Under the pieces are notes generated by a model. It did not search any database. It saw nothing but the letters and a program-made list of their open reading frames with translations, and was not told the DNA's origin. Positions 937 to 24,882 of a stretch of DNA of 64,000 nt are shown one piece after another. Position 1 is the first letter of the stretch, and every line of letters begins with the position of its first letter. Location: positions 16,471,001 through 16,535,000 of the forward strand of contig NC_092566.1 in the NCBI RefSeq assembly GCF_037975245.1, given 5' to 3'. The DNA comes from Apostichopus japonicus (lineage: Eukaryota > Echinodermata > Holothuroidea > Aspidochirotida > Stichopodidae). A program made the translations under genes and the position numbers.

Positions 937-1280
937 ATGTTTACAATGTTACAGCACGTCATAACGTAACATCGCACAATGATGATACTGGATCATATCC
1001 ATGCAACCTTCATCAAGAGGAGGTTTACATCGCACCCGCTGGTCTGCATCTGCTTCTCACCATAGAGTATTTCAACACTTACAACGGAGACTACCTTAGA
1101 GTTGGAAATGGCAATGTAACAAACGAAAGAAATATTCTTCTGTACGATCGAGGCCATTTTATAATGAAATACGTGTTTTATCAGAGGAAAACGTTATGTG
1201 GTTGGCCTTCACATCGGATATCTATAACAGCTATGGTGGTTTCAGCGGTTTCGTGGAACCAGTTAACATGACGTTAGATG
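937..1280 (+). CDS. CUB exon 1 of gene A, with a 1-bp deletion
   Basis: The acceptor TTCCAG ends at 936 and the donor GTAAGA starts at 1281. The exon is homologous over its length to the CUB exon at 2203-2547, with shared EEVYIAP, LLLTIEYF and GGFSGFVEPVN motifs. It is 344 nt against 345 nt in its sister. One base is missing around 1155-1163, after the LLYDRG codons, so the second half is read in another frame (resuming MWLAFTSD at about 1196). If transcribed as is, including it truncates the protein. A sequencing or assembly error is the main alternative. Confidence 0.7.
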
Positions 1281-3336
1281 GTAAGATAAATCATGCTTTC
1301 GTGTTCTTTTGTATTTTCTCCAGAGAGGCAAAACAAAAAGAGGAAAGGAATATACATGGCGAATGTTCGGACATTGTTACCATGTACCTTATACTCGATG
1401 TATAAAGTCCTAGTTGTCGCTTATTAAGTTACATTAATAACATTTGCAATACTTAGGCATGCATACGTACATGAAACCAGACCCAAACATGACACCGAAT
1501 AATAAGCATCCACTTTGCTGCACATACATTACAACATATGAAACTATTATAATATCGCAATTATCCCGATGTTATTGCTGCACATAGGGTACAATGTAAA
1601 GTTGGTGAATCGCCTGGTCCAAACCATGGCTTAACAACAAGCAATTGTGACTTGCAAAATTTGAATTTGAATTACGTCTATAAGTATAACTCTTTGCAGT
1701 TGAAACTACAGTTTGTCTTTCAGCCAATACATAGTGTACGTGCAATGTTCATGTGATCACGTAGTTTGGTCTTCTTCTCGTCTTAAAAGGGAATGTGCAG
1801 TAATATCGTATTATTTGCCATCAGAACTCGATTGTGAAAACGATTTCAGCTGTAAAAATGGAGCATGTATATCGCAGAGGTCTGTTTGCGACAGTCTTGA
1901 TAACTGTGCTAACGGTTTTGATACGACAGGTTCCATCCTCTCAGGTTAGTTATGTACAAAATAACAATAATATATACAGTTTATAACGAAATATGTTGTT
2001 TTGTCTTGTGTTTAATTCCGTTCTTTTGTGTTTATTTCTTGCGATGATAAGGAAACGTAAAAGTATAGCAAGAGGCACTACAACTCTTCGTTGAGGCATG
2101 AGTGATTGTAAGACTGCACCGTGTTGGTAAAATCAACATAATTATTTGAGCAGCTGAAAGAAACTGAATTTGAAAACTGAGGATCCTTATATTTCTTTCC
2201 AGATGTTTACAATGTTACAGCACGTCATAACGTTACATCGCACAATGATGATACGAGGACATATCCATGCAACCTTCATCAAGAGGAGGTTTATATCGCA
2301 CCCGATGGTCTGCATCTGCTTCTCACCATTGAGTATTTCAACACTGGATACGGATACTACCTTAGAGTTGGCAATGGGAATGTGAAAAACGAAAGAAATA
2401 TTCTGCTGTACAATCAAGGGACATTGAATAATGAAATACGTGTTTTATCAGAGGAAAATGTAATGTGGCTGACTTTCACATTGGATAACTTTAACAGTTA
2501 TGGTGGTTTCAGCGGTTTCGTGGAACCAGTTAACATGACGTTAGATGGTAAGATACATCGTGCTTTAGTGTGCTTTTTTATTTTCTCCAGAGAGGCAAAA
2601 CAAGAAGAGGAAAGGAATATACATGGCGAATGTTTTGACATCTTTACCATGTACCTTATACTCGATATCTTAAGTCCTAGATGTTGCTTATTAAGTTATA
2701 TTGATAACATTTGCAATACTTAGGCATGCATACGTACACACAACCAGACCCAAACATGACACCGAATAATAAGGATCCACTTTGCTGCACATACATTACA
2801 ACATATGAAACTATTACTACATCGCGATTATCGCGATGTTATTGCTACACAGAATGATACAATATCAAGTTGGTCAATCGCCATGGTCAAAACCATAGTT
2901 TAATATCAAGCTTGTGACATGCAAAATTTGAATTTGAATTACGTCTATAAGTATAACTCTTTGCAGTTGAAACTACAGTTTGTCTTTCAGCCAATACATA
3001 GTGTACGTGCAATGTTCATGTGATCACGTAGTTCGGTCAGCTTCTCGTCTTAAAAAGAAATGTGCAGTAATATCGTATTACTTTTTGCCACCTCCACATC
3101 GGATAATTTTAACCATTATAATGGTTTCAGCGGTTTTCGTGGAACAAGCGAATATGACATTTGACCGTTTCAATATTTGGTTACTCACGCACTTTGTGTG
3201 CATTTTTAAACTAATCTGAATATTTCATAGTGATAATTCAGGTTACACTGAGCAGAATACAGGAAATGCTTAAATAAATTGGATTACCGACGTACCCCAT
3301 TAAATTTAGTCTTTATTGTCACACGCGTTTACATAA

Positions 3337-3407
<71 letters not shown>

Positions 3408-5947
3408 AGAGAAAACCAGAGAAATAAGATATGACTCATAATTGACAAATAAGGAGTAAGTTTTAGAAAATATATTGGAATTTTCGGTCCCCCTTGGACC
3501 TTCGTCAGCAATACTTGGCAGTCGAATGATAAGTACAAAATGTGACACAATGAAAGTATGACGCTAGATAAGTGTAAGTTGCAATGATGGAATTAAAACC
3601 AAATAAACCATGACTATACAGGAAGCGGATTAAGGAGCAAAGAACGGATTACATATGCTTGTAGAACTGAAAGTTGTTAAGGGGTCCCAAGTCTTTGTTG
3701 AGGCCGGTGATGTGAGACTTAATACGAAAGATCCAATCGATTACTTTACGTTTACGTTCAGTAGTTGATTTGAAGTCCGAGGCAATTAAAATACATTTCA
3801 GGTTTTTTAGAGAATGACTATGAAGATTGAAATGTTCGGAAACTGGGAATCCTGCAAAATTATCACGAATAGATATTTTGTGATTATTAAAACGTAAGCG
3901 GAATCGGGAGCCTGTTTCACCTACATAATTGCCCTCTTTGCAAAGTACACAATAGAAAATGTAAATAACATTAATAGAATCACAAGAGAGGGAAGGGGGT
4001 CTTAGACTAAAGTCAACATTGGGAATCTTGACCACGGTGCCTGGGTAATATGGGGGCATATTTGGCATCTAGGTTTACCGCAAGGAAAATTGCCAGCGGA
4101 GGTGGAAACTGAGCGGGGGAGTCTGGAGGAAGTGAGAAGAAATTTAAGGTTGGGGGGTTGACGAAATGCTAGCATGGGGGGTACCTTAAACGATTCTCCT
4201 ACAGACTGATCGTCTTGAAATACAGCAAATTCCTGTTTGATGGAGCGAATGAAAGATTTGATGAGGGGGTTGTAACTGGTAACGAATGGATGTATCCTCT
4301 TTGTACACTAATATCCCTCACGATGAGGGAATTATCGCTTGTCAAAATTTTCTTTTTGAGCATGCCACCAACCCCACTTTAGGTGATGATCTTGGTCCCA
4401 TTTTACGTTTCATATTAGGTAATAATTATTTCTCTTTTAACTAGAAATGTTATCTACAAATCAATGGTACCGCTATGGGCACTAAGATGGCACCTTGTTA
4501 CGCCAACATATTTATGCACGAATTAGAACAGGAAATGCTATCCACTTCTCCTCTTAAGCCTTCACATTATTATAGATATATTGACGATATATTTTTTGTC
4601 TGGCCACATGGTGAAGAATCTCTCAAGTCTTTCTTTGATCATGTCAATTCTTTTCATGACAGCATTAAATTTTCTGTCGAAGTTTCCAAACATCAACTTT
4701 CATTCCTAGATGTTCTGGTCAAGTTGGATGGCAATTCCTTAACCACTTCGGTCTATTATAAGCCCACTGATATTCATATGTATTTACACTTTAATAGTTT
4801 TCACCCACATAATCTCAAGAGTTCTAATGTTTACAGCCAATGCCTTAGACTTAAACGCGTTTGCTCCAACCCATGTGATTTTGAACACCAGGTATCCATA
4901 TTAACTGGTTATTTCTTGAACGTCGGATACCCCCTTCACTTAATTAGACAGGATATTTCCAGGGCCGACAAGTTGAGCCGTGAGGACTTATTAAAATACA
5001 AGTCTAAAAGTCCCAACACACGCATTCCGTTCGTTACCAGTTACAACCCCCTCATCAAATCTTTCATTCGCTCCATCAAACAGGAATTTGCTGTATTTCA
5101 AGACGATCAGTCTGTAGGAGAATCGTTTAAGGTACCCCCCATGCTAGCATTTCGTCAACCCCCCAACCTTAAATTTCTTCTCACTTCCTCCAGACTCCCC
5201 CGCTCAGTTTCCACCTCCGCTGGCAATTTTCCTTGCGGTAAACCTAGATGCCAAATATGCCCCCATATTACCCAGGCACCGTGGTCAAGATTCCCAATGT
5301 TGACTTTAGTCTAAGACCCCCTTCCCTCTTTTGTGATTCTATTAATGTTATTTACATTTTCTATTGTGTACTTTGCAAAGAGGGCAATTATGTAGGTGAA
5401 ACAGGCTCCCGATTCCGCTTACGTTTTAATAATCACAAAAAAAATCTATTCGTGATAATTTTGCAGGATTCCCAGTTTCCGAACATTTCAATCTTCATAG
5501 TCATTCTCTAAAAAACCTGAAATGTATTTTAATTGCCTCGGACTTCAAATCAACTACTGAACGTAAACGTAAAGAAATCGATTGGATCTTTCGTATTAAG
5601 TCTCACATCACCGGCCTCAACAAAGACTTGGGACCCCTTAACAACTATCAGTTCTACAAGCATATGTAATCGGTTCTTTGCTTCTTAATCCGCTTCCTGT
5701 ATAGTCATGGTTTATTTGGTTTTAATTCCATCATTGCAACTTACACTTATCTAGCGTCATACTTTCATTGTGTCACATTTTGTACTTCTCATTCGACTGC
5801 CAAGTATTGCTGACGAAGGTCCCAGGGGGACCGAAAATTCCAATATATTTTCTAAAACTTACTCCTTATTTGTCAATTATGAGTCATATCTTATTTCTCT
5901 GATTTTCGTTAATAATATTTTCTTTTGGAGTAAACGTGGATTTTCGT

Positions 5948-5984
<37 letters not shown>

Positions 5985-8900
5985 ACTCGGTCGAAGTACA
6001 TTCATTTTACTTTCATACGAGATGGCATTGGTCGTAACATTTAAAGAACCTTTAGCTTATGAAAAATCTATATCTAAATTATATTCTTATATAAATCTAT
6101 ATATTTACTTCTTTTCAAAGTCATCCGATTATTCTTACTTTATTTTTACTATATACTATACATTTTATTAAACATCATATACCAAGTTATTGAAGGTCGA
6201 GTTCTCAACGCCTACAGGTGTGACTGATTTAGAAATGTGAACCAGTAACTTCAGTGCATGTTACTTCTGTATGAAATATTTACCCACAGAGCTCCAATGC
6301 GGAACCGAATTCAATTGTCAGAATGGCGCATGTATACCACACATCTTCGGTTGCGATAATGAACAGAACTGTGCTAATGGTCTCGACACTATTGTTACCC
6401 TTTCAGGTAAGTGATTACTATTTTTTAAATTGCAAAATGCAAAGATATACAAAATATCATAATGAAACTGGGGAAACAAATACAAACCAATTCACATTCT
6501 GTGTTAACGCATTAATAGAAACAGAACATGTTTCTTGGTTAACAGTTAACTTTGACCTTACAAATGCTATCATATAAACCAAAGATGGTGGTCGGGTTGT
6601 GTCCCCTGAAGATATTTTGAAAGTTACCAACACACATTAGATACAAACACGTACTAAAGTGAGCCCACAGTCTGCACATGGCGCGTACTTGCTGGGCAAA
6701 CTAAAAAAGTGATATGTTCCTCCCTGATTGTAAATTTCCTCCAAAAAAATCAAAGGAAGGTGCTTATTTATCAAGGGGCCTTATGGTATGACGCAGTTCC
6801 AGTTTACCATATTCATATTTAAACTAGAGACGTGCAATTGGCCGATGGCAAGCTCTTTGCAACTCCCAGATGATGGTAATGTAACACGTTTTATATATTT
6901 TGAGTAAATGACCCTGCCAGTTTTACACGGCATCCATTATTATTACGACATGTTATATGAGTAACAGCGTAACAAATGGATTGTGCTTAAATGTGGGCTA
7001 TACTATGACTATTGGAACACAGAAAACGTTTAATTTGGTAACCTTTATAACATTACGCAGGCGCGTATCCAGGATTTTCTAACCCGGGGGGCGCGAATTA
7101 CTATCTAAGCGGAGCGCCACCATCGGTTGGCGCGCAGCGTACAAGAAAATTTCTGGTTTTGATACCCCCCAGATCACCGGAAACGGCACTTCTTGGGCTT
7201 GAAATGACCAACCAGATGTACACTTTTTGCCTGAGAACCAAGTATTTCCTAATAGTTTTTTTTTTCCATCCATAACCTTTTTGAAGATTGTCAACCCGGC
7301 ACACGTCATGTTCGACCTGATCGCATCTCCTGTGGGTCTTTGCTTTTGTAGGTGATTCTACGTCGCGGCCCACAATACCCGTCAGCCCCACTTTTCAAGG
7401 TTTTAAGCCCCAAATTTGTTCAGAATTTGAAAATTCACATTTCTCGTGAATAAACTCACTTCAAAACATACCCATAATGTTGTACAAAATTTCATCTATG
7501 GACAACCAATATAGAAAAACTTCCTTCAACCCCTAACAGACCGGTCAAAATTGCACGAGAAGAGGGAAGTGTGATGCAGAATGTTGGTCAGAAATTTTCG
7601 AAAATTCAGACACAGTTAATTTATTGGTGTACAAATATTAAACCTCTTATAACGGCTATTATAAAACTTGGTTGCAGGAAATGAAAAACTAGCAGATATT
7701 TCCGAAACCGAACACTACACACATAGGCGTAGGAGGCGCGGCGGCAGTGGCGGAGCTAGGGGTATTGGTCATGAGGGGCGAGAATGGTCTGTAGGGGCGC
7801 TTTCGACACTATCTAAGCGGAGCGCCACCACTGGTTGGCGCGTAGCGCACAGAAATGTTTTGAGTAAAGATACTCCCTAGATCGCCGGAAATGACCCTTT
7901 TCAGGGCCTGGCTAATTTGCAGATAAACGGAGAATAGGGTGTCATCGCCAAATTACACCAACAAAATGTGACAAATGTCAATAAGTAGATGAGAGCGCAA
8001 TAAAAGAGTCAATAATGTAGAATAAGTAAAAAGTGGTAAAGAGCTGAAAAAGGCGCCAGCAGTCCATTTGAGTCCGTCAGGGGGGGGGGCATCCGCCCCC
8101 CTGACCGTATGGACGCTCCGCCACTGCGCGGCGGGGGTGCAGCCCCTAATTCGCCATTACTAATGTAAAAGAGAGTTTTGACATAATTGGACCTCCATGC
8201 TTTTTATACATCTACCTGAGACATGTCGTTGTTTACGTTAGCATCCCGCGGTATACTGCGCAATTTTAACGGACCGTACGGTACATGATGGCATGCGATG
8301 TAATAACCGATGCTTGCTTATATGATATTGAAATTGACACGTTAAACGCGCGCTTCGCGCGCGAAAATTGTTGGTTATTTTTTCAAGCGAGTCGGACAGT
8401 TTTGAGGATTTTCATCCTGGAACGCCATTTTCATGCTCACTGATATGATGTGATATCTGCTGTTTGCGTTACAAATTCGAACAGGCGCGTAGCGAGGAAT
8501 TTGCCAAGGGAGGGGCGAAGCTTGTAGGCAAATTATCTAAGCGTAGCGCCACCATAGGTTGGCGCGAAGCGTACAAGAAAATTTTGGACGAAAATGTCTC
8601 CCAGATCGCTGGAAATGGCACTACCAAGGACCATTTGTTAGCGCGAGGCGCACAAGCAAATTTTGGCAGAAAATGTCTCCCAGATCGCTGGAAATGACAC
8701 TTCCCAGGCCTTGTAAGTTGCATCTAAGCACTTTCTATTTTGAAATTACTTAGCGATATCATTTAAAAAAATGCTGAATGGGGGGGGGCGGTCGCCCCCA
8801 TCCCAAAATGCGTCATGTTCCCCGACGACACGGTCGAGTTCGAGACCTAGCCACAGTTGGTTTCATAGCACAATTCTACACACGCGTTATGATAGACCAT

Positions 8901-11900
8901 ATATAGTATATACATAGATCATTAGTGAGAGAGGAAAATGGAAACTTAAAAAAAATGGAGTTGTCGGTGTAAGGGGTAGGGTGAGGCACACTTTTACGAA
9001 ATCATTGATCCGTCACTGGCTACCCTTCAGCGCTGTAATGATGTCACTGTTCCTCTTTCTCTTCCCGGTGTCTTCGCGTTTTTCTTTTACTCCCTCCTTT
9101 TCTCCTTCTTCTCTCTTTCTTCTTTTTCTTTTCCCTTCCTTCCTATCCTCCTCCTCTTTTCCCCCTCTTTTTTCCTTTTTTCTTCTCTTTTTTTTCTCTC
9201 CTCTTTTTCTTACCCGGGGGGCGCGCGCCCCCAACGCCCCCCCCCCCTGGATACGCACCTGTTACGGGTTTCTATGGACAGATTCACGTAGATTCACTAA
9301 AAATATTAACTAATACTTAGCAACAGCTAACTATATACATATTTTCTACTTACAGAAACTACATATGTCAACCAAAGCTACAACGTGAGTTCGTATATGT
9401 TTGACTCTGGCGGGTACCCGTGCAAGCTGCAACAAGAGGAGTTTTTCATCGCACCCGATGGACACAATATTCTTCTAACTATTGAATATCTATTTACGGA
9501 GGAACTGTACGATGTGCTGAGAATTGGTAACGGGAATGATATCAAACAGGGACTTCTTCGGGAATACTCTGGAGGACCATTTATTCATGAAATAGAAATA
9601 TTATCAGAGGGAACTATGATGTGGTTGACACTCATTGCGGACGGTTCTATTAATTCTATAGGTTTCAGAGGTTTTGTAAAATCAGTAAATGCAACAGCAT
9701 ACAGTAAGTGAATTCATTTTCGTCCTAATTTTCGTTAAAAGAGCAATATGATTTATTAGTAACTTATGCAAGATTTAATGACCTTTGAAGAAAGTCTTGG
9801 TGCTTATTAGTTTGTCTACACGCTCGTTTCAAAGGCATCAACTTTCCAAATGATAAGTTATGACTTCGCAGGAACGTTGATAACAATCAAAAAAAGTAAT
9901 GTTCTCCCTAATGTTGGTTATATACAAAATAATAAGATATATTAAATTACGAAAGAAAACCCTTTTTGTGATCGATTAATAGATTCCAGCAAAATGTTCT
10001 TTGTGATTGATAATCATATAAGAGAATGTGTCATTTATAGTCAAACTCTTTTGCCAAAAAAAATACTACATAAAAGTATTTTATCATAACAGCAGAACAG
10101 AAACCACGATCACATCGTAGATGTATGGAACTGTGGATGGAGAGAAATGACTTCATTCTCTTTACCTGCAGAATTAAACTGTGAAAAATTAACTTTAATT
10201 GTAAGAACTGGGCGTGTATATCAATAGCGTAGTTGTGCGACACAATTGTTCAAATGGATACGACAAAGCAGGTTGACTCAAGTTAATTGCATAACAGTAA
10301 TTACATAACATCGATTTTAGCATTGACATGTAAAGGAGAAATGGAATGATAATGTAACTTACCCGAAGGATTGAATCTCAATGATCGTAAAAGATCGTTA
10401 AATATATACTCGATTAGGATAGTTTATATGCAGTCTTTTTACATGCTACGTGATATAGGGGGGCTGTTATTGTAAAGATCTGCACTTCTTTGTCCTTTCT
10501 GATCAGGTTTTAGGTTCGTGCATGCGTCTGTTGTGTATTTCACATGTCCTCAAAAATCAACTTTAGGCACGGCTTCAGGTAACCTTCGTTGACTGATGTC
10601 GTTGCTGTTTTAATACAGTGCGGAATTGTCTTAAATATATATGATTAGTTTGAATTCTCTCGACAGTAACAAGCAACTCTCAATTTTAAAACTAAGGTTA
10701 AATGCAGTTACACTTTCATTTCAAGTTTAAGTTATCTTAAACTTAAAACATTTTCGGATGGAAATTCAACGGTAATGATAGTGCAGTGTGTCTTTATGGA
10801 GAGTGGATTTCTGAAGATGCGTTTTGCAATGGTTAGGAAGAGCGACATGTTTTATAATGCACCGAAGCAGTGTTATTTATCAGCGATTGCTTTCTATTCA
10901 TATAATTCATTGTTTTAACATTTACATGTCATTGACATAATACCACTGATTAATGGATTGCATTATTCCTCCTACAAGCTTTACTGTGTGCTGAACCACA
11001 TCCACCAGATGAATTGGTTTCTCACCGTCCTGATTTACCAGAAGGGCAGTTGTATCCAAATGGAACTGAAATTATGTATGAATGTCCGGAAGGGTGGAAA
11101 TTCAACGGTAATGATAGTGCAGTGTGTCTTTATGGAGAGTGGACTTCTGAAGATGCGTTTTGCAAAGGTTAGTAAGAGCGACATATTTTACAACGCACCG
11201 AAGCAGTGTTTTTTTTATCATCGATTGCTTTCCATTCATATAATTCATTGTCTTAATATTTACATATCATTGACATAATATCACTGATTAATGGATTGTA
11301 TCATTCCTCCTACAAGCTTTACCGTGTACTGCACCACATCCACCAGATGAATTGGTTTCTCACATTGCTGATTTACCAGACGGGGAGTTGTATCTAAATG
11401 GAACTGAAATCATGTATGAATGTCCAGACGGATGGAATTTAAATGGCAATACGAAAGCAGTGTGTCTCTACGGAATGTGGACGAACGAAAACGCCTTCTG
11501 CTCAGGTCAGTCAAAGCGCCTTACGGCAATTGAAGTACTGTCATTTTCTCAGTCACTCAGTATACAGCTATATAATTTATTATCGAATTCTAAACATGCA
11601 TGTGGTCTCGTCGAAACTCGAAATGCTTATATCAATTATTAGTTTTTAGGAGTATAGCGATTGGCTTAAAATTTTAGTGAGTACATATGAAACATATCCA
11701 TTTCGATTTAAGTATATATTAAAGTTAATTTTGTTGTTTTGTTACAACGACTGATCTCCACAACTCTGTTATCCATCATTATATATTACCTATAACATTA
11801 ACGTTATGATATCAGAAACTTCAATATGATCATATGGTTATTGTAGTCTTGCTCTTTTACAATTTCAGAGATACTTCCCACAATGTGTCCATTTCAAAGT

Positions 11901-14900
11901 CTTTCTTTTTCTGGTGTGCAACTTACATTTCGGGCTACTTACCCTGGATCACACGTTAACTCAATACAAAACTGCAGTGAAGAATCTTCTAACGGTAAAT
12001 GCTCCTTTCCTCTTCCAGAAATGTTCCCATAGCTTATTGCCGGTGGTTACATTGATTAGTGTAACAGGTGCAAAGTGAACTTGAAAAGTTTGGGTTCATT
12101 TCTCAGTTATTAGAAAAAAGGAAATTGGTTCAAATTGGCAACAGATTTGTTGTTTGCTTACTTTAATCTTGCTTGTGATATGATAATACTTAATTTAATG
12201 CAGTATTTCATCCAGCCTTATATGGTGTTCTCTCTTATAATTAGCGTATCACCCTTTGGCCATGAGAGTTTGCGATGAGGATGGATGGGAGGAACCAGTA
12301 CTCACAACATGTTACACTCCAGAAGACGCGGCACATGCGGTGGAGAGAATTACCAATGTGAGTGTCTTAAGTTACATCGCTCGATGTGGACACTTAATTT
12401 CCCCAGCTCTGCTTTAAAATGAATAGAATGAAAACAGTACGATGGCTTTCGAGATGGACGCGTGTATTTCATGACATCGATTCTGTTGTCAATGATGTCA
12501 TGCAACTCTTTGACTTGCCACCATCTCCTTACCACCTGCTTCGCCTGCTCTCAATAACCACTATGATGTCAAGTTATATATTTAATCATATTCCAGTGTT
12601 TTAATTATAGGCTGCCTTTGAAAGAGATCGACGGGCATAATTTTATACGTTTGATTTTTTTCTTTACAATATTAAATTAAAATTTAGTTACCATAGTCCC
12701 AGTGATCATTTTAATAGCAATACATTGACTTATCTCGCAGACGACTGTAACTGAGGAAAATGTCGATGAGGTTGCCAGCGATCTAGCACTTGTAACAACT
12801 CAGACGGAAGATCTTGACGTATCACAGGTAGAAGATGTAGCCGAGTCATTACGGGACATTGCTAATGTCAATAGTTCTTCAATAGAAGTAAGTTATGCCT
12901 GACATTAGGTGCAATTCATTGTTTATGTCTATGAGAGGGCGTTGTGGTAAATTGGTTAAGGCAGTGAACTTGTGATCTAAGGGTAACAGGTTCGAGGTAA
13001 CTTCTAAATATAGTTGCGTCCGCCGGTTTGCGGCTGCACCCTATGGGAAGTCCCCCAGGGGACACGTGGCTGTGGTGCACTTTGGTGCCGCAGGAGAGAT
13101 TGTTTGAATTGTGCACACTTTGGTGTGTAGGCGTGACAAGTTACCAATGACCAGGGCTAAGTTACACATCCGGGACAGCAAGTTTGCGTATGAGGATGTG
13201 CATTAACCAAGAAACAAGAATCTACGCTTGTAAAGCTGTGAAGATGTTCGTTATTTACCTGTTTTTACGTTTATCTTAAATAATGGTATCCTATCATAGA
13301 CTTATTTTGCTGAATTGAATTTTTATTTGTGAAATCAGAGATAGCAGTTTGAACGCATTAGATCCATCGCCGCAGGTTACCATTTATATCAAAAGAGAAA
13401 CCATTTACCACTGTCAATCTCCGCTCAGTTGCATAAACTTCGATGTCAATGGCCTCTTATGGAAATATTTTGCGTCCAGATAATGCCGGCATTAGCCGAA
13501 GATTTTAGTGTGTAGCACCGATTACATGCGCATGGCTCAGTTTCCATCGTTAAAATTCAACGGTCAAATTTAATATCAGTATTTCATTAACTAATATTTC
13601 TGATTTAGAGCATATGAAAGGATTTTTTTTTTACAGAATCCCCTAATTTCACGATAAACATTACCCGCTCATTTATATTCATTTTAAAGGTTACAGAGTC
13701 CGTAGTAGGGACGGTGAACAACCTAATGGAAGTAAATGAAAGAAGTTTGGAACAAACTGTCGGATCTAGTAGTGTCATTGTATCCTTGGAACAGCAAATA
13801 TCTAATGTTCAAAAAAATCCTAACAACTTTACGGACGTACAACATAACGTTGGCGTTCAAGCAGTTAAGTTAGACCCAGACATAACCAAGGCGGTCACAT
13901 TTATCAATTTACCGCCAAGTAATACTACTGGCCGAGATGCTTTGAATGCTGATCTTGCCGAGGAAAACACACGGCTATTTAACAATAAGCAGGAAGTACG
14001 AACAGATAACAGCACAACATCGATTTATGTACCATCAAAGATATTGGAACTAGCATTAGAAGGTAAAGATCACTATTGAAGCGACGTATTTATACTATTA
14101 ATTTACGACGAAGTATCACTGCAAACGTCGATCTCAATCAAACGTCAGTCATGTCAATTCTTTCTTCAAAACCCATTTCACAATATACTAATCATTTTAC
14201 AATATTGAATTAACAATGAACGATGTATATTGGACAAACAATTGAGAGGCTGTCACAAAAAAACGTAATCAACAATCTTGGGAATTTAATTTACTGTTCA
14301 TTTGAGAAGATTCATTTTGCAAGATGTTTCGCATGAAATTACATATAGAACCAAAGAAACATGTCATAATTTGAGTCCAATGTTTTGTTTTATTTCCCTA
14401 AATCATAAATACTCATATATACCTTGTGCAAAATCTTAGAAAGTAATTATTAACGTTTTTCCTGTTTCAGTTGATCCAACTATTACTCACGTTCCAATTA
14501 GCTTCTTCATTTACAAGGATTCCCGATTATTTCAAACGAGTCAGGTATCATCGACTTCTGCACCCGAGAAAGACAATATCAAGAATAGACAAGAAATTGC
14601 AAGTCAAGTTATTGCAGCGACCTTAGAGGTAGCTAACGTTGTCATTAAGGATCTACCGCCTGGAGATTCTATCGTTACGAGGTTTACAATAGCACCCGTA
14701 AGTCCATATAGGGCATTTACTGTCCACTAAATACAAAGTAAACACTTGCATTATTCATAACGAATTCTAGCATTGTCGTGTAACTAATATCTATCCAACA
14801 TTCTGTCGCATACTTGTTTAAGATGCATAAGTGTTTAGTTTATAGAGAAATACACAATTACTGTTAACAATTCACGTGGACCTGCAGTTCCTGGTTAAAG

Positions 14901-17900
14901 CTGAAACATTTCTTCTAACAAATATCTTAATGCACTTCAAATGTTCAAGAAAATAAGAAATATGTTTATATCTTTGGTTATAACTTGTGAAGAAAAGTCA
15001 ACTCTATCAAAAGAGACGTAATATCTTGGTTTTTTTTTTAAATTATTTAGCATCTAGGACAAAACGAAGTTGTAAAAGAAGAAAAGTGTGTCTTCTGGTC
15101 AGTTTCAGAGGATGGCAAACAAGGAACATGGTCCGCTGAAGGTTGCACATTAACCAAAGACAAGAATCAGACAGTGTGCACATGTAACCATCTTACGAGC
15201 TTCGCCGTGCTCGTCGTAAGTTACGTATTAGACAAAAGAAAAATGCAGGCATTGACACGTTCTATGAGTTGTGTTGACGTGTAGCTTAACGTAATTTGAG
15301 TTTATACGTTAATCCATAGTTAATGTAAGGTAATATACTTAATTCACCTTGATTTAACCGTTCTTTAGCCTACGTCTGAAGTCGCAACATAACGCTCCTA
15401 TATTTCTAGGTTTAATCATATGCCCTTCTCTATAGATAACTTTGATATATGTTACTGAATGAAATTTAGTCACGGACTGTGATGGATTGTCTATGAAGAA
15501 CAATTTGTGCTCATGCGCATATCAAATGTATAATGTATAATCCCCGCTGCCTGGGCAATCAGGATGCTTTGCCCCAACCTTATCTGAGGAATCATTCGAG
15601 CGTAACTAGTTTGAATTTGTATTTATTTCTACACTTGTCTACAGGGAATTGGCTCAGATCTTCCAGAAGCCCTTTCAATTATAACCGTGGTAGGGTCATC
15701 TCTTTCGATAAGTGGCTTAATTCTTTGCATCTCATCATTATCACTAATAGGGTAAGTGCATTATTTTCTCAGCTTGAAAGTACCTTCTATTTGTGTGAGG
15801 TTCCGGTATCAATCTGGTAAATGACTCAGTCTTCGTCTTCTTGATTCTAATAACAGGAACATTCCAAATCCCATGCAATACTGTACTATAAAATAGGAGA
15901 TTCCTCATTAAATTTATCTCATATATATATACTTAAATTGGTTACTGAGTTTCAAAACACAAAGTTTGAATATTATATACGATAATAATGTTTAATATAT
16001 CATTATTACGATAGTGGAAGTAAACTTATATTGTCTACGTTAATGTTTTTTCTCTCGAACATATCATGGTCTGATGTAGCTCAATGAATCGAATGTTGTT
16101 AGGTTCTTGAAGTAAAGTATTGACCCTAATAAACTTAAATTTGTCAGTTAGCATTGACTTACTTATTCAATTACTTTAAAATACGCCGATATTTAACAAA
16201 CATTTTAATCCTCCACTTGGCGTATTAATTTTGTAAAGAAATCGCGGATTTTTGTCGTCATACGGGACTTGGTAAATTGTATTGATTCATATTGATTTAT
16301 ATTTCCGTTCTTACAGAGGACTACGAACGAAGCAAGCATCACAAATCCATCTCAATCTTTGCCTGTGCTTGTTAGCTTTCTACGTAGTTTTCCTGGTGGG
16401 AGATTTCGTCATCGACAAGCCAAGACATTGCAAAAATATTGCTACAACGATACACTACTTATGTTTGACGACTGTAGCGTGGATGTCTGTAGAAGCATTG
16501 CACATGTACTTGCTGTTTGTCAAATTTAAAACACCCAAATTGTTTCAGTTGAAACTAAAGTATTTTGTTTCCGTGTCTGCTGTGTCCGTATACGGTATGT
16601 ATTGTGTGAAGTATTTTGTTACATTTCCATTTCATGCTAATGAAAATTTCGTGTTTTGTTCTCTGAAGTTTCAAACTGCATTGTTAAAAGTTTAGTTTTC
16701 ACTTTCTGAAGGAAAAAAAGTGATGATCGCTCTTTGGCTGAGTCACTGTAATCATACCAATTTACGCTTTCCTTACAGAATACCAATTAATGAAACTCTT
16801 ACCGAATAAAGGTTAATTGAATTCCATAATACGTTACTAAATTATTGTCCCAAAACAGACTTTTGTCTTGGAGACAGTGATATCATATCAAAGTGATCCA
16901 CAATGAAAAGTTTTGCATTTTATTTCTAGCTAATGCATTGTCAGAATTGATAAATTTTCTGTTATGAAAGTTGTATCATTGATTTGGATTACAATTAACA
17001 TTAAAATGTGTGTTATTTTTATTGACTAACATGCTAAACGACACTAACGTAGAACTTTCATCAGTTCGTCTAGTCAGGGTGCAGTGTGCTTTTCGTCGTG
17101 TTACTTATCTATAGTGAAATCACTATCACCTTCCGTTTCAAAATTCAATTATTTCTAATTAGATGCATCGTTAGGAAGCGATAAATGTCAGATCAATAAA
17201 ACATGTGATTAAGGTTGTAACATATAAATTGATCATATGTATCGGAAGCACTGTGCTTCTTAAACAGGTGAATGGTTCACCTGAAGGGTGAATGAAGTTA
17301 TCGTGGGGTGAATAAAACTAGAGGGATGAATGAGAGTGACTGAAACAGAAAGGGTGGATGACTTAATTTACTCAGATATCTATATGTTCTTTTATACAAA
17401 AACATGTTGGGATAAAGATTCAAGGGTGAAACTACACTGAAATAGTTTAAGACACATTGTATCACAGTCATAATAGCATAAAGATGAGAAAAGGGTAATG
17501 AAAACCCTATAGTATCTTGCTTCTGTGCCAATATTCAGTTGGTTGTGACTTCGAAATTTTAATTTCCCAGTGTTCTTATATTTCATGAAAATTATCATTC
17601 TGATAACTTACTTCAATGAACGAATCTGTTGAGGAATAATTTGTTTATACAATTTTGATTTTATTTTGCTGTAAAACGAAACATTAATTTTGTATGTTTT
17701 TATCTCTGTTTACTTCATTATCAATATTTAAAGACCAAATTTAAACGATGTAAATTTTCCTCCAAAGGCCTGTGCTTGATCCCTGTTTTGAGTGTGCTCT
17801 TCCTTTCATCTCAAGAAGTAGATGGATAGTAAGTTGTTTTGTTGTTGTCAAAATCTCATAATAGTTCCATTTATATAATTTGTTTTAAATAACAACATTC

Positions 17901-18844
17901 GAATATATGTAGAATGAGATATTGTAGCGTAAAGCTTCTTCAATATCTTGCCCAACAACTGTGCAAGAGCAATATAATTGGACCTTTTGATCAAGATTGT
18001 TATGTTTATTTGTTATTCAATATGAAGAACAGTAGTTCAATAGCTTGTCATGGGTAAGGTATTCGGGGTTTTTTCTTACTGTTTTAATATCAAGTAATGA
18101 AAAATGCAGCGTTAAATTAGATGACAAATTCAATATACTATGTCGAATTCCGTTTTCTGTTAATGGTATTGCAAACTTAATGCGTTTAACTACTCAAATA
18201 TTGTTAACATTTAATTTGAAGAGAAAGTATGTTATGATAACATAACAAATTCAATTTGACAAAGATCTTCAAGGAATATTACTGGTGATACATGATACAT
18301 GTGGATTCATATCTGGTCACATTAGAAGAATATTTGGTAATCTGAAGTATTTTATTGTTTCATACTTCACAGTTGTTTTTTGCCCTCGGGTCAAGGACTA
18401 CTTTTTGGACTTATTTTGGAAGTACTGGTAATGGTCTTGTTTAACTTGGTTGTATTTGGTCTTCTTCTTCGTAACATCGTCTTTCGTCCGATAATGTCAA
18501 GTAATGCCAAGGGATACAAGAAGAAAGAGATGTTCTCAAGGTTACAGCAGTTCGTCGTATTCTGGTTTCTCCTAGGAATGTCATGGACTTTTGGTTTTTT
18601 GGCAATGATTCCTAACCGAGAGTCTGTTGTATTTGAATATTTGTTTTGCCTGTTTACGTCCCTTCAAGGATTCTTCTTATTCATTTTCATCTGCTTGAAA
18701 AACCCAGAGGTGGTAAATAGATTCAAGAAAACTAGGGCCTACCTTAGTGAATGGAGTAACGAGAAGAATGAATCTAGCCTTAAGACATTTCGTACAGGTG
18801 AAAGTAACTCCACACAACGAGCTGCACAGTCAAGCGAACTATAA
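937..18844 (+). CDS. Gene A: adhesion G-protein-coupled receptor with LDLa/CUB/CCP ectodomain (5' partial, multi-exon)
   Basis: Exons read: 937-1280 (CUB, frameshifted), 1825-1944 (LDLa), 2203-2547 (CUB), 6290-6406 (LDLa), 9356-9703 (CUB), 10979-11167 and 11317-11505 (CCP), 11869-11994 and 12245-12357 (HormR-like), 12741-12887, 13690-14062 and 14471-14697 (GAIN), 15051-15215 (GPS), 15645-15751, 16317-16594, 17768-17828 and 18373-18844 (7TM, tail, stop TAA). Phases join without conflict from 1825 to the stop. The GPS keeps the cleavage context HLT-S with its paired Cys/Trp pattern. In this family the receptor self-cleaves there, and the new N-terminus acts as a tethered agonist in the plasma membrane. 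The ligand is unknown; CUB, LDLa and CCP modules usually bind extracellular proteins. There is no start codon in the window. The 344-nt first CUB exon breaks the frame if used, so either it is skipped, or the allele is damaged, or it is a sequence error. Subfamily not assigned. Confidence 0.85.
1825..1944 (+). CDS. LDLa exon 1 of gene A
   Basis: The exon is 120 nt, phase 1-1, with acceptor CATCAG and donor GTTAGT. It encodes an LDL-receptor class A repeat with the order C-F-x-C-x-x-G-x-C-I and CD....NC..G.D. The usual acidic end with a sixth cysteine (SDE..C) is replaced by a Thr/Ser-rich end, leaving five cysteines. LDLa repeats normally fold around Ca2+; here some Ca2+ ligands remain but the final Glu does not. 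Confidence 0.75.
2203..2547 (+). CDS. CUB exon 2 of gene A (intact)
   Basis: The exon is 345 nt, phase 1-1, acceptor ending at 2202 and donor GTAAGA at 2548. It keeps the CUB signature: QEEVYIAPDG, LLLTIEYF, YLRVGNG and the closing GGFSGFVEPVN strand. Only one cysteine is present (YPCN), whereas CUB domains usually carry four. This copy gives the reference frame that exposes the deletion in exon 1. Confidence 0.8.
3091..3165 (+). pseudogene. Truncated CUB exon remnant
   Basis: About 75 bp match the last part of the CUB exons (the CACATCGGATA... and GGTTTCAGCGG region). An extra T breaks the frame, and the donor has become TTTGAC. It lies next to intron sequence with no acceptor of its own, so it is dead. 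Confidence 0.65.
3335..3404. repeat. (TA)n microsatellite at the left edge of the Penelope-like element
   Basis: About 70 bp of almost pure TA with one interrupting C directly abut the outer end of the left inverted arm of the Penelope-like element. Confidence 0.9.
3649..4068 (-). pseudogene. GIY-YIG endonuclease fragment of the Penelope-like element (left arm)
   Basis: A 139-residue open frame carries the GIY-YIG core in the Penelope form: INVIYIFYC, a CVLC pair, then NYVGETGSR and R.RFNNHK. It continues open to a natural-looking end (FYKHM). This arm lacks the 2-base expansion that breaks the same frame in the right arm. It has no reverse transcriptase of its own, so it cannot move alone. 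Confidence 0.8.
4289..5511 (+). pseudogene. Penelope-like reverse transcriptase plus GIY-YIG domain (broken)
   Basis: From 4289 the frame reads VSSLYTNIPHDEG, then an in-frame TAG at 4442, then GTAMGTKMAPCYANIFM, YIDDIFFVW and SFLDV, ending at 5314 with the FPCGKPRCQIC linker. The nuclease continues in another frame from about 5248 (NVIYIFYCVLC, NYVGETGSR) and stops at 5511. There are three lesions: the stop at 4442, the frame change near 5260 (also present in the left arm) and a net +2 in an A-run near 5440 (absent from the left arm). The 5' part of the element is missing. Non-functional as read. Confidence 0.82.
5951..5981. repeat. (TA)n microsatellite at the right edge of the Penelope-like element
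   Basis: About 30 bp of TA repeat lie some 35 bp outside the right inverted arm, mirroring the tract at 3335-3404. Confidence 0.85.
6290..6406 (+). CDS. LDLa exon 2 of gene A
   Basis: The exon is 117 nt, phase 1-1, acceptor CCACAG and donor GTAAGT at 6407. The order of cysteines is QC, NC, AC, GC, NC, again five with no sixth and no SDE motif (NGLDT instead). The shared loss with LDLa exon 1 suggests that the five-cysteine form is the family's own version rather than random decay. Confidence 0.75.
7745..8126. mobile_element. hAT-type MITE, 382 bp, with perfect 8-bp target duplication
   Basis: Termini CAGTGGCGGAGC (left) and its inverse (right) bound 382 bp without coding capacity. The 8 bp CGCGGCGG occurs directly on both sides (7737-7744 and 8127-8134). 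hAT transposases produce 8-bp duplications and favour CA..TG ends, so this is a clean insertion. The interrupted host sequence around it is itself repeat-like (CATAGGCGTAGGAGG...GGGGTGCAGCCCC). Confidence 0.85.
8482..8760. repeat. Copy of a GCGCCACC-core repeat shared by the hAT-like elements
   Basis: The block TCTAAGCG(G/T)AGCGCCACC followed by GGTTGGCGCG and ACAAGAAAATTT appears near 7105-7155, 7810-7860 and 8535-8585, in different surrounding elements. A shortened echo lies near 8640-8690. It is a shared internal core, with short inverted halves able to pair. Confidence 0.6.
9040..9215. repeat. Polypyrimidine tract (~175 bp of C/T)
   Basis: The plus strand is nearly all C and T for about 175 bp before the right terminus of the composite element. 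Long homopyrimidine runs can adopt triplex (H-DNA) structures. The open frames it creates (Phe/Ser/Leu on plus, Lys/Glu/Arg on minus) are low-complexity artefacts. Confidence 0.8.
9356..9703 (+). CDS. CUB exon 3 of gene A
   Basis: The exon is 348 nt, phase 1-1, acceptor CTTACAG and donor GTAAGT at 9704. CUB landmarks: GGYPCKLQQEEFFIAPDG, LLTIEY, VLRIGNGND and FRGFVKSVN. As in CUB exon 2 there is a single cysteine in the YPC position. It is more diverged from exons 1 and 2 than they are from each other, so it predates the ~1267-bp duplication. Confidence 0.8.
10172..10271 (+). pseudogene. Dead LDLa exon
   Basis: The acceptor (CTGCAG) and donor (GTTGAC) positions are kept, but the exon is 100 nt instead of 117-120. 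Fragments LNCEK, FNCKNWACIS and NCSNGYD appear only by changing frame twice, and a TAG falls in the middle. It sits where the next LDLa of the alternating series would be expected. Confidence 0.65.
10749..10832 (+). pseudogene. Truncated CCP (sushi) exon copy
   Basis: About 85 bp match the 3' half of the CCP exon at 10979-11167 (the region encoding FNGNDSAVCLYGEW). They are followed by an intron copy that parallels 11168-11316. The 5' half with its acceptor is missing and the donor has changed. Confidence 0.65.
10979..11167 (+). CDS. CCP/sushi exon 1 of gene A
   Basis: The exon is 189 nt, phase 1-1, acceptor TACAAG and donor GTTAGT. It encodes a complement-control-protein module with the four-cysteine order C...MYEC...VCLYGEW...FC and the conserved Trp before the last cysteine. 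CCP modules are extracellular protein-binding units. Nearly identical in layout to the next exon. Confidence 0.8.
11317..11505 (+). CDS. CCP/sushi exon 2 of gene A
   Basis: The exon is 189 nt with the same phase and cysteine spacing as the previous exon, donor GTCAGT at 11506. The two exons and the introns before them repeat with a 338-bp period, a recent tandem duplication. Differences such as NLNGNTKAVCLYGMW show that they have begun to diverge. Confidence 0.8.
11869..12357 (+). CDS. HormR-like domain exons of gene A (11869-11994, 12245-12357)
   Basis: Two exons (126 and 113 nt) encode a four-cysteine unit ending A.RVC.EDGWEEP...TC, the usual signature of the hormone-receptor-like domain that precedes GAIN in adhesion GPCRs. 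The first half lacks the typical Trp, so it is a divergent form. Gene B has the same pair (123 and 113 nt). The second exon ends in phase 0, leading into the GAIN exons. Confidence 0.7.
12741..14697 (+). CDS. GAIN domain exons of gene A (12741-12887, 13690-14062, 14471-14697)
   Basis: Three exons of 147, 373 and 227 nt encode a mainly helical then beta-rich region (TESVVGTVNNLMEV, SSIYVPS-like strand, PISFFIYKDSRLF) typical of the GAIN fold before the GPS. Gene B has exons of 147, 373 and 224 nt with about half of the residues the same. GAIN is the autoproteolysis-inducing fold that holds the cleaved receptor halves together. Confidence 0.8.
12932..13215 (+). mobile_element. tRNA-derived SINE
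   Basis: The head starts GGGCGTTGTGGTAAATTGG with an A-box-like TGGTAAATTGGTTAAGGC, and a B-box-like GGTTCGAGG follows about 30 nt later. An unrelated body of about 220 bp comes next, with short inverted repeats (CCCTATGGG, CCCCCAGGGG). It lies in the intron between GAIN exons. No matching cloverleaf was found, so it is a SINE and not a tRNA gene. Confidence 0.65.
15051..15215 (+). CDS. GPS exon of gene A
   Basis: The exon is 165 nt, phase 0-0. Order: KCVFW...TWSAEGC...QTVCTCNHLTSFAVLV, with the four cysteines and two tryptophans of the GPCR proteolysis site. Cleavage in this family occurs between Leu and Thr of HLT; both residues and the preceding His are present, so self-cleavage is expected. 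The tethered agonist would begin TSFAVLV. Confidence 0.9.
15645..18844 (+). CDS. Seven-transmembrane exons of gene A
   Basis: Exon 15645-15751 carries TM1; 16317-16594 carries TM2, TM3 and the start of TM4; 17768-17828 the rest of TM4; 18373-18844 TM5-TM7 and the cytoplasmic tail. Family landmarks are ASQIHLNL in TM2, AWMSVEALHMY in TM3, LLGMSWTFGFLA in TM6 and LFCLFTSLQGFFLF in TM7. The tail is about 50 residues, Ser/Thr/Asn-rich, with no PDZ motif recognised. The TM1 exon is 12 nt shorter than in gene B. Confidence 0.88.
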
Positions 18845-19899: not shown

Positions 19900-20439
19900 T
19901 ATGAGAGCGTATTACGCAAATGGTATGATTGTACAGGGTGCATCCCTTGTGCTCTTGAAACTGACAATTCATATCAATATTATTAATTTTCCTCTAAGAT
20001 ATGGACCTATTATCGCAGTTTTATTGCCTGGTTGGAAGCAGAATGGACCGCTCTATCACATAGGCCTGTTTAGGGAACAATTAAAAAACCACGATTTCGA
20101 CCAAATTTGAAAAAGACATATACTAAAAAGTCATATACCCTTACCAAAATGTCAAATTTCGACCAAAAATCGAATCTTTCCGATTTCGATGAGGATGGAT
20201 TATATCGATTCCCGTAACTCATATCTGTCGTTTAATCCATAAAAATCGGTTGACTAAGCTATAATTTTCTTAAAAATGACATTTGAACATTGATATCAAT
20301 ATTATTTCATTTTCCTATATGATATGGACCTATAATCGCAGTTTTATTGCCTGGTTGGTAACAGAATGGGCCGCTCTATCACATAGGTCTGTTTCGGGAA
20401 CAATTTCTTCTCGTGACAAAAGTCGGGAGTCATTTAAAT
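19900..20439. repeat. Left flank of the satellite: diverged monomers
   Basis: About 1.7 copies of a ~322-bp unit (GATATGGACCTATTATCGCAG..., repeated near 20000 and 20322) resemble the core monomer in order of motifs but are strongly diverged. They have CACGATTTCGACC in place of GTGATTTTGGCC and an extra TCGATTCCCGTAACTC block. The same variant returns at the right flank. Confidence 0.7.
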
Positions 20440-23400
20440 TTGATATAAAATCACGTCAAGATATGGTTTTTAAATTTCATTTTTTTCACCGAAATATGAC
20501 TGTTTATTCTGCTCTGATCACATGGAAAGGAATCAAAAGGGCGCCACACATCCCAGGTACAATATTGGGAAGAATGAAAAAAGTCGTGATTTTGGCCAAA
20601 ATCGAACAAAATCATAAGGGTATATGCCTTACAAAATTGCCAAATTTCGGCCAAAAATGAAAGTTCTCAAATTTCCCTCAGGATACTTATACGGGTTCCC
20701 AGAACCTAAATAAACGCTTCTCTCCCGACAAAAGTGGAATTCGACGACGTTTCAGTCATTTAAATTTGATATGAAATCACGTCAAGATATGGTTTTTTAA
20801 ATTTCATATTTTTCCAAAATATGACTGATTATTCTGCTCTGATCACATGGAAAGGAATCAAAAGGGCGCCACACACCACAGGTGCAATTTTGGGAAGAAT
20901 TAAAAAAGTCGTGATTTTGGCCAAAATCGAACAAAATCATAAGGGGATAGCCTTACAAAATTGCCAAATTTCGGCCAAAAATGATATTTCTCAAATTTTC
21001 TCTCAGGATACTTATACGTGTTCCCAGAACCCGAATAAACGCTTCTCTCCCGACAAAAGTGGAATTCGACGAAGTTTCAGTCATTTAAATTAGATATGAA
21101 ATCACGTCAAGATATGGGTTCTTAAATTTCATTTTTCACCGAAATATGACTGTTTATTCTGCTCTGATCACATGGAAAGGAATCAAAAGGGCGCCAGACA
21201 CCACAGGTGCACATTTGGGAAGAATTAAAAAGTCGTGATTTTGGCCAAAATCGAACAAAATCATAAAGGTATAGCCTTACAAAATTGCCAAATTTCGGCC
21301 AAAAATGAAATTTCTCTCAGGATACTTATACGGGTTCCCAGAACCCAAACAAACGCTTCTCTCCCGACAAAAGTGGAATTCGACGAAGTTTTAGTCATTT
21401 AAATTTGATATGAAATCACGTCAAGATATGGTTTTTTAAATTTCATATTTTTCCAAAATATGACTGATTATTCTGCTCTGATCCACATGGAAAGGAATCA
21501 AAAGGGCGCCACACACCACAGGTGCAATTTTGGGAAGAATAAAAAAAGTCGTGATTTTGGCCAAAATCGAACAAAATCATAAGGGTATAGCCTTACAAAA
21601 TTGCCAAATTTCGGCCAAAAATGAAAGTTCTCAAATTTCTCTCAGGATACCTATACGTGTTCCCAGAACCCAAATAAACGCTTCTCTCCCGACAAAAGTG
21701 GAATTCGACGAAGTTTCAGTCATTTAAATTAGATATGAAATCACGTCAAGATATGGTTTATTAAGTTTCATATTTTTCACCGAAATATGACTTTTTATTC
21801 TGCTCTGATCACATGGAAAGGAATCAAAAGGGCGCCACACACCCCAGGAGCAATTTTGGGAAGAATTAAAAAAGTCGCGATTTTGGCCAAAATCGAACAA
21901 AATCATAAGAGTATAGCCTTACTAAATTGCCGAATTTCGGCCAAAAATGAAATTTCTTAAATTTCTCTCAGGATACTTATACGTGTTCGCAGAACCCAAA
22001 TAAACGCTTCTCTCCCAACAAAAGTGGAATTCGACGACGTTTCAGTCATTTAAATTTGATATAAAATCACGTCAAGATATGGTTTATTAAGTTTCATATT
22101 TTTCACCGAAATATGACTTTTTATTCTGCTCTGATCACATGGAAAGGAATCAAAAGGGCGCCACACACCACAGGTGCAATTTTGGGAAGAATTAAAAAAG
22201 TCATGATTTTGGCCAAAATCGAACAAAATCATAAGGGTATATGCCTTACAAAATTGCCAAATTTCGGCCAAAAATGAAAGTTCTCAAATTTCCCTCAGGA
22301 TACTTATACGGGTTCCCAGAACCTAAATAAACGCTTCTCTGCCGACAAAAGTGGAATTCTACGACGTTTCAGTCATTTAAATTTGATATGAAATCACGTC
22401 AAGATATGTTTTATTAAATTTCATTTTTCTTCGAAATATGACTGTTTATTCTGCTCTGATCACATGGAAAGGAATCAAAAGGGCGCCACACACCACAGGT
22501 GCAATTTTGGGAACAATTAAAAAAGTCGTGATTTTGGCCAAAATCGAACAAAATCATAAAGGTATAGCCTTACAAAATTGCCAAATTTCGGCCAAAAATG
22601 AAATTTCTCTCAGGATACTTATACGTGTTCCCAGATCCCAAACAAACGCTTCTCTCGCAACAAAAGTGGAATTCGACGAAGTTTTAGTCATTTAAATTAG
22701 ATATGAAATCACGTCAAGATATGGTTTATTAAATTTCATATTTTTCACCGAAATATGACTTTTAATTCTGCTCTGATCACATGGAAAGGAATCAAAAGGG
22801 CGCCACACATCCCAGGTACAATATTGGGAAGAATGAAAAAAGTCGTGATTTTGGCCAAAATCGAACAAAATCATAAGGGTATATGCCTTACAAAATTGCC
22901 AAATTTCGGCCAAAAATGAAAGTTCTCAAATTTCCCTCAGGATACTTATACGGGTTCCCAGAACCTAAATAAACGCTTCTCTCCCGACAAAAGTGGAATT
23001 CGACGAAGTTTTAGTCATTTAAATTTGATATGAAATCACGTCAAGATATGGTTTTTAAATTTCATTTTTCACCAAAATATGACTTTTTATTCTGCTCTGA
23101 TCACATGGAAAGGAATCAAAAGGGCGCCACACATCCCAGGTACAATTTTAAGAAGAATTAAAAAAGTCGTGATTTTGGCCAAAATCGAACAAAATCATAA
23201 AGGTATAGCCTTACAAAATTGCCAAATTTCGGCCAAAAATGAAATTTCTCTCAGGATACTTATACGTGTTCCCAGAACCCAAACAAACGCTTCTCTCCCG
23301 ACAAAAGTGGAATTCGACGAAGTTTTAGTCATTTAAATTAGATATGAAATCACGTCAAGATATGGTTTATTAAATTTCATATTTTTCACCGAAATATGAC

Positions 23401-24882
23401 TTTTAATTCTGCTCTTATCACATGGAGAGGAATCAAAAGGGCGCCACACATCCCAGGTACAATATTGGGAAGAATGAAAAAAGTCGTGATTTTGGCCAAA
23501 ATCGAACAAAATCATAAGGGTATATGCCTTACAAAATTGCCAAATTTCGGCCAAAAATGAAAGTTCTCTCAGGATACTTATACGGGTTCCCAGAACCCAA
23601 ATAAACGCTTCTCTCCCGACAAAAGTGGAATTCGACGAAGTTTCAGTCATTTAAATTTGATATGAAATCACGTCAAGATATGGTTTTTTAAATTTCATAT
23701 TTTTCCAAAATATGACTGATTATTCTGCTCTGATCACATGGAATGGAATCAAAAGGGCGCCACACATCCCAGGTACAATATTGGGAAGAATTAAAAAAGT
23801 CGTGATTTTGGCCAAAATCGAACAAAATCATAAGGGTATATGCCTTACAAAATTGCCAAATTTCGGCCAAAAATGAAAGTTCTCTCAGGATACTTATACG
23901 GGTTCCCAGAACCCAAATAAACGCTTCTCTCCCGACAAAAGTGGAATTCGACGAAGTTTCAGTCATTTAAATTTGATATGAAATCACGTCAAGATATGGT
24001 TTTTTAAATTTCATATTTTTCCAAAATATGACTGATTATTCTGCTCTGATCACATGGAATGGAATCAAAAGGGCGCCACACATCCCAGGTACAATTTTGG
24101 GAAGAATTAAAAAAGTCGTGATTTTGGCCAAAATCGAACAAAATCATAAGGGTATAGCCTTACAAAATTGCCAGATTTCGGCCAAAAATGAAATTTCTCT
24201 CAGGATACTTATACGTGTTCCCAGAACCCAAACAAACGCTTCTTTCCCGACAAAAGTGGAATTCGACGAAGTTTTAGTCATTTAAATTAGATATGAAATT
24301 ACGTCAAGATATGGTTTATTAAATTTCATATTTTTCACCGAAATATGACTTTTTATTCTGCTCTGATCACATGGAAAGGAATCAAAAGGGCGCAACACAT
24401 CCCAGGTACAATATTGGGAAGAATGAAAAAAGTCGTGATTTTGGCCAAAATCGAACAAAATCATAAGGGTATAGCCTTACTAAATTGCCAAATTTCGGCC
24501 AAAAATGAAAGTTCTCAAATTTCTCTCAGGATACTTATACGGGTTCCCAGAACCTAAATAAACGCTTCTCTCCCGACAAAAGTGGAATTCGACGAAGTTT
24601 CAGTCATTTAAATTTGATATGAAATCACGTCAAGATATGGTTTTTAAATTTCATTTTTCACCAAAATATGACTTTTTATTCTGCTCTGATCACATGGAAA
24701 GGAATCAAAAGGGCGCCACACATCCCAGGTACAATATTGGGAAGAATTAAAAAAGTCGTGATTTTGGCCAAAATCGAATAAAATCATAAGGGTATAGCCT
24801 TACAAAATTGCAAAATGTCGGCTAAAAATGAAAGTTTTCATATTTCTCTCAGGATACTTATACGGGTTCCCAGAACCCAAAT

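Follow-up and report, generated by a model that had tools for sequence, protein, structure and literature searches.

In a 64,000-nucleotide stretch of the Apostichopus japonicus genome (hereafter the window; G000:C6:16471001-16535000, from a genome total of 671,581,487 bases in 35 contigs), a receptor gene carries an array of alternating LDLa and CUB exons with unusual cysteine counts. In this array and in that of a tandem neighbour, every LDLa followed by a CUB lacks its sixth cysteine (C6; as a coordinate prefix, C6 denotes the chromosome), and the CUB that follows it carries a new cysteine. From these paired states we infer that the fourth LDLa cysteine (C4), freed by the loss of C6, probably forms a disulfide with the new cysteine in the CUB that follows, and this would turn the two domains into one covalent six-cysteine module.

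We read 334 kb that include the window, and then searched them with profiles built from the exons. Two tandem genes in this region, A and B, hold LDLa-CUB arrays. Gene A has 16 CUB and 16 LDLa exons (16397320 to 16438094). Its array is followed by an open reading frame (ORF) with an IgGFc-binding domain (G000:C6:16439707-16441005; PF17517, 102.8 bits), situated between the LDLa-CUB array and the GAIN region, and then by a GAIN-region exon, the GPS motif and seven-transmembrane (7TM) exons. Gene B, the window's gene, has 6 CUB and 5 LDLa exons (16457851 to 16480703), with Sushi exons, GAIN region, GPS and 7TM exons after the array on the same strand. Because a GPS motif precedes secretin-class 7TM exons downstream of the array, the window gene is, by its predicted domain order, an adhesion G protein-coupled receptor (GPCR).

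Four window exons (1825-1944, 2203-2547, 6290-6406 and 9356-9703) are open, have AG/GT borders and a length that is a multiple of three. Phase-1 introns flank all four, so that they could be duplicated or skipped without a break in the frame. Both LDLa exons score above the Pfam Ldl_recept_a cut-off of 24.1 bits (PF00057; 29.0 and 32.8 bits). The initial annotation had described them as lacking the sixth cysteine and the SDE motif, and the translations agree on both counts: each has five cysteines (C1-C5) where LDLa has six, and in both the glutamate that follows the aspartate (position C5+6) is missing. The two intact CUB exons are 43% identical to each other. CUB 9356-9703, the last intact module of the window's array, passes the Pfam CUB cut-off (PF00431; 22.7 bits, cut-off 21.4), as do three of five further CUBs scanned, and the Pfam scan returned no match at E<=1 for the ORFs of CUB 2203-2547 and of the frameshifted CUB 937-1280. 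The latter is a near-copy of 2203-2547 at a spacing of about 1267 bases. Each window CUB has one cysteine where four canonical ones would be expected. Its location in the YPC motif had been read correctly for both exons, but the site is not among the four canonical CUB cysteine positions.

The cysteine states of neighbouring modules are tightly coupled. All 20 LDLa-CUB neighbours in the two arrays combine an LDLa without C6 and a CUB with its cysteine, and C4 is present in 19 of them. Eighteen pairs show a clean five-plus-one cysteine count; of the other two, one has a CUB whose frame breaks after the cysteine codon (window 937-1280) and one has an LDLa with four cysteines that has lost C4. 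Among the 21 LDLa modules of the two arrays, five cysteines were counted in 19, four in one and six in one. From LDLa C5 to the CUB cysteine there are 31-35 residues, with the LDLa end assumed in two cases. Decayed pieces at 16404326, 16474054 and window position 10232 were kept outside these counts, together with two chance LDLa matches inside the insert described below.

The ends of the arrays provide an internal control, as modules without a partner there keep their ordinary cysteine state. The last LDLa of gene A, after which comes the IgGFc-binding ORF and no CUB, has six cysteines and the residues DE at the calcium site. At the opposite end, YPN in the first CUB of gene A and YQN in that of gene B stand in place of the YPC, or variant of it, of the other CUBs. 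Each of these two CUBs is located downstream of another gene's 7TM exons, and profile searches of the 334 kb found no LDLa ahead of either; upstream of them lie possible, unproven candidates for signal-peptide exons. Among 17 columns conserved to at least 90% in 19 internal CUBs, the cysteine column alone differs in both fully read first CUBs. Since the first CUBs lack the cysteine and the last LDLa retains C6, the partner of a CUB is the LDLa that precedes it. The array ends thus give a direction to the unit, LDLa then CUB, that had been proposed from the exon order.

Searched with the window CUB, the whole genome yielded 90 matches. Among them are a second cluster, on the minus strand of the same chromosome (C6, 15.83-15.95 Mb), a separate locus at 7.23 Mb, and weaker relatives, some of them on C21. 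The second cluster was read after the pattern had emerged; it was expected, though not set down in advance, that first CUBs would lack the cysteine and internal ones carry it. For this cluster and the 7.23 Mb locus the reading covered the stretch round the CUB cysteine codon or LDLa C4-C5+11, rather than total cysteine counts. For the CUBs of the cluster this meant 85 bases at each of 17 intact among 22 places (the broken or partial ones at 15837862, 15837935, 15890175, 15890039 and 15938898 were omitted), and for the LDLa modules C4 to C5+11 or slightly beyond in 7 of 14. All four first CUBs lack the cysteine (YPN, YPN, YQN and YQN) and all 13 internal ones carry it. C6 is absent from the six LDLa modules that precede a cysteine-bearing CUB, and it is present in the last LDLa of gene D2, which is followed by a 7TM exon and has no CUB of its own. 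In all five C6-bearing modules of the comparison C6 sits at C5+11.

The boundaries of these arrays were set by 7TM exons where possible. Such exons lie at 15905633, 15865894 and 15823849, after arrays D2, E and F respectively; their identity to the gene B exon is 67, 96 and 97%. The first CUBs of E and F come after another gene's 7TM, and that of D1 comes after a 7TM exon with a stop (15950861). D1 is partly broken, with a partial 7TM within it at 15939550. Between D1's last CUB and D2's first, the matches listed include no 7TM, and the start of D2 was set by the absence of an LDLa there. The absence of a preceding LDLa in the second cluster rests on a search that scored 150 of 162 candidates.

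The locus at C6:7.23 Mb has the domain order CUB-LDLa-CUB-LDLa and sequences related to those of the arrays. Unlike in the window, C6 is present in both LDLa modules and the cysteine is missing from both CUBs: a C6-bearing LDLa precedes a CUB without the cysteine, the CUB before that LDLa also lacks it, and the LDLa that follows has C6. With the neighbour order of the arrays and both cysteine states reversed, this locus displays the unswapped state. Near it, no window-like 7TM exon was among the matches listed at E<=1e-10. On C21 one LDLa has C6 and one CUB lacks the cysteine, and both were kept out of the totals. An LDLa match at C6:17.01 Mb was rejected; it is ordinary and C6-bearing, with no CUB of the array kind in the 2.5 kb examined. 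As a separate observation, the receptor cluster occurs in two oppositely oriented copies (C6 15.82-15.96 Mb versus 16.38-16.52 Mb), and the window's receptor has near-copies in E and F, about 0.6 Mb off on the other strand (7TM exons 96-97% identical).

Over all loci read, C6 is absent from 26 of 26 LDLa modules before a cysteine-bearing CUB and present in the other four LDLa modules of the family (4/4). The CUB cysteine is present in 33 of 33 array-internal CUBs, and absent from 8 of 8 CUBs at the start of an array or behind an LDLa with C6. Fisher tests gave p = 3.6e-5 for LDLa C6 and 1.0e-8 for the CUB cysteine, with copies treated as independent though they are tandem duplicates. Elsewhere in the genome, C6 is present in 14 of 14 distinct LDLa modules from 6 high-scoring loci; this control took the best-scoring 8 loci of the genome search, 6 of which gave pattern matches (16 matches, 14 distinct). 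The initial annotation had asked whether C6 loss always accompanies a single-cysteine CUB. Within this genome these counts bear that out, but as a strict rule it is broken by the LDLa at 16417186 and by the first CUB of gene A.

The location of the new cysteine is compatible with a bond to the preceding domain. When the first CUB of gene A is aligned to an enteropeptidase CUB (a weak match, E 0.063), YPN falls on YPN and a non-cysteine residue on canonical C2. By the same weak alignment the new cysteine takes the position that follows YP, and canonical C2 lies four residues further on. In CUB structures the bond partner of C2 is C1, at the domain's N-terminal end, and the new site should therefore face the preceding domain. 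LDLa disulfides pair C1-C3, C2-C5 and C4-C6, and loss of C6 would therefore orphan C4. In keeping with an orphaned C4, the only LDLa with a further cysteine loss (16417186) lost precisely this residue. The calcium-site glutamate (C5+6) is kept in 2 of 19 five-cysteine modules and in none of six C6-less second-cluster modules, and is present in four of five C6-bearing modules, the C21 LDLa included. This distribution suggests that the weld may have replaced both the local bond and calcium.

The modules are part of a giant adhesion GPCR. Within every repeat the LDLa lacks its sixth cysteine, the normal partner of C4, and the following CUB has a single new cysteine near its own N-terminal end. 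In the mechanism we propose, the freed LDLa C4 and the CUB cysteine most likely form a disulfide joining both domains. An LDLa without such a CUB after it, or a CUB without such an LDLa before it, keeps its ordinary state. The weld would probably substitute for the local C4-C6 bond and possibly for the eroded calcium site, and the joined, repeated pairs could form a stiff repeating rod on the receptor. The inter-domain weld of the initial annotation thus gains support from co-occurrence and array ends, the bond itself being predicted from the cysteine states. More tentatively, a disulfide may have moved across a domain border, with LDLa trading its C4-C6 bond and calcium-site residues for a bond to CUB. 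The product would be an obligate LDLa-CUB supermodule in which neither half folds alone, and up to fifteen copies per gene would make a covalently stiffened rod that passes force to the GPS and 7TM regions.

Several observations weigh against a disulfide between the domains. The LDLa at 16417186 has phenylalanine for C4 and no consensus splice donor, and the next CUB keeps its cysteine; skipping of this exon, or a recent loss, may account for this. In gene A, the first CUB has a lone cysteine at another place, which we take to be near canonical C3, without a visible partner; an odd cysteine with no visible partner can occur in these receptors. AlphaFold models of the CUB alone were poor, with a predicted local distance difference test (pLDDT) score of 41.5 from one sequence and 53.7 from the three window sequences. 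A Foldseek search with the latter model matched mixed beta-sandwiches; among the best 50 listed, CUB chains take ranks 22, 24 and 43. Owing to the poor model and the mixed matches, no distance between the two cysteines was taken. The joining of LDLa and CUB exons is predicted from the genomic DNA of a single genome. The remaining points against the bond are that the modules are clearly tandem duplicates, so that the counts reflect few events, and that the two fully read first CUBs group in one clade (100/100).

Both of these last points favour the strongest rival, shared descent without a bond. An ancestral unit would have lost C6 and gained the CUB cysteine by chance, tandem copying would have spread both, and the uncopied ends would keep the old state. 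Against this, both cysteines were kept through deep divergence. On a tree that spans 8.43 substitutions per site the CUB cysteine stays unchanged, and pairwise CUB identity falls as low as 31%; the residues round it vary freely (YPC, FPC, YSC, HQC, RSC, LGC and GEC), and both cysteine codons are used at the site. C4 persists in 19 of the 20 pairs and the CUB cysteine in all 20, although the usual partner of C4 is gone, and a secreted domain would be expected to lose an odd thiol for which it had no use. We consider shared descent without a bond unlikely.

The odd cysteines could instead bond between receptor molecules, LDLa to LDLa and CUB to CUB, in a dimer or a sheet. Covalent dimers often use odd cysteines, but such bonds predict neither the cysteine-less first CUBs nor the C6-bearing last LDLa, and we hold this arrangement to be rather less likely still. 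It is very improbable that the modules are decaying, with the cysteine losses due to drift. There are a few broken copies (window 937-1280 and 10174-10273; 16404326), and six recent pairs (dS under 0.09) give ratios of nonsynonymous to synonymous substitution rates (dN/dS) of 0.63-1.97 on few changes. In contrast, the frame is open in 42 of the 43 modules of the two arrays, a GT donor is present in 42, and dN/dS is 0.14-0.41 in all 7 tested pairs with dS over 0.09 (15 pairs were tested, 2 of them without a ratio). Decay of the whole array was rejected on frames and donors. Pairing of each CUB with the LDLa after it, conceivable in mid-array, where exons alternate and either neighbour could serve, predicts a cysteine in the first CUBs and no C6 in the last LDLa; the array ends contradict it on both, and we rejected it as highly implausible.

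Among known systems, the enteropeptidase heavy chain (two LDLa and two CUB; PDB 7wqw and 8h3s) also has LDLa beside CUB, and its CUB is among the nearest solved sequences to the array CUBs, as a weak match. In the part of the source available to us, the disulfides named for enteropeptidase are Cys967-Cys995 in the catalytic pocket and Cys772-Cys896 between chains, and no LDLa-CUB disulfide is among them (PMC9663175). The truncated LDLa-SRCR-protease MSPL/TMPRSS13 differs in that its LDLa lacks the N-terminal half rather than C6, the neighbour of this LDLa is SRCR, not CUB, and the unit is not repeated. ADGRG6/GPR126 presumably differs in having one CUB and no LDLa array. It resembles the window's receptor as an adhesion GPCR with an N-terminal CUB, the CUB and a pentraxin being named in the accessible portion of its description (PMC13197933). 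Among the titles and abstract openings listed, in a search that left subscription journals mostly outside, none concerned an LDLa-CUB inter-domain disulfide or these receptors.

LDLa and CUB are usually viewed as independent beads, and here the genome supplies its own control in the partnerless array ends. If the bond forms as proposed, the arrays would be a clean case of a multi-domain repeat evolving out of separate domains. They would also offer a testable hint of the way in which long ectodomains of adhesion GPCRs could gain the stiffness to carry force. For annotation and design they advise caution, as an odd cysteine count may be resolved by the neighbouring domain.

Table 1. Exons of the gene B receptor in the window, with proposed bonding sites (window positions)
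Feature	Position	Strand	Remarks
CUB exon	937..1280	+	Cys codon kept; the frame breaks behind the YPC codon, and the CUB profile is matched in two overlapping frames
LDLa exon	1825..1944	+	5 Cys, C6 absent; C4 codon 1887-1889, proposed bonding site
CUB exon	2203..2547	+	Single Cys (codon 2268-2270), proposed to bond with C4 of LDLa 1825-1944
LDLa exon	6290..6406	+	5 Cys, C6 absent; C4 codon 6352-6354
CUB exon	9356..9703	+	Single Cys (codon 9421-9423), proposed to bond with C4 of LDLa 6290-6406
Decayed LDLa remnant	10174..10273	+	Frame broken, read by eye; weak profile match (E 0.13) at 10232-10273; uncounted
Two Sushi exons	10978-11169, 11316-11507	+	Same receptor (gene B)
GAIN-region exon	13690..14061	+	Named by its position ahead of GPS; no Pfam match
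GPS motif exon	15051..15215	+	PF01825, 65.1 bits
7TM exons, secretin/adhesion class	16309-16524, 18389-18733	+	7tm_2, E 7.6e-11 and 1.9e-10

The intron between CUB 2203-2547 and LDLa 6290-6406 contains a large fold-back insert (3400-5918). Its arms are inverted (3400-3882 against 5436-5918, 98%; 3876-4290 against 5026-5440, 100%), and it carries a reverse-transcriptase ORF (4445-5314, RVT_1). We presume that the insert consists of two head-to-head pieces of a Penelope-like element, which it resembles. Between two receptor genes, a 325-base unit is repeated in tandem about 20 times (20428-26925), and short ORFs recur along it. A mucin-like, threonine-rich ORF of 601 codons built of 129/390-base repeats (30854-32659) precedes the GAIN region and 7TM of the next receptor. 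Further downstream, an ORF at 50534-51187 matches Rost (rolling stone protein, E 1.6e-13), and a minisatellite of 32/96-base units at 61440-63198 contains long minus-strand ORFs.

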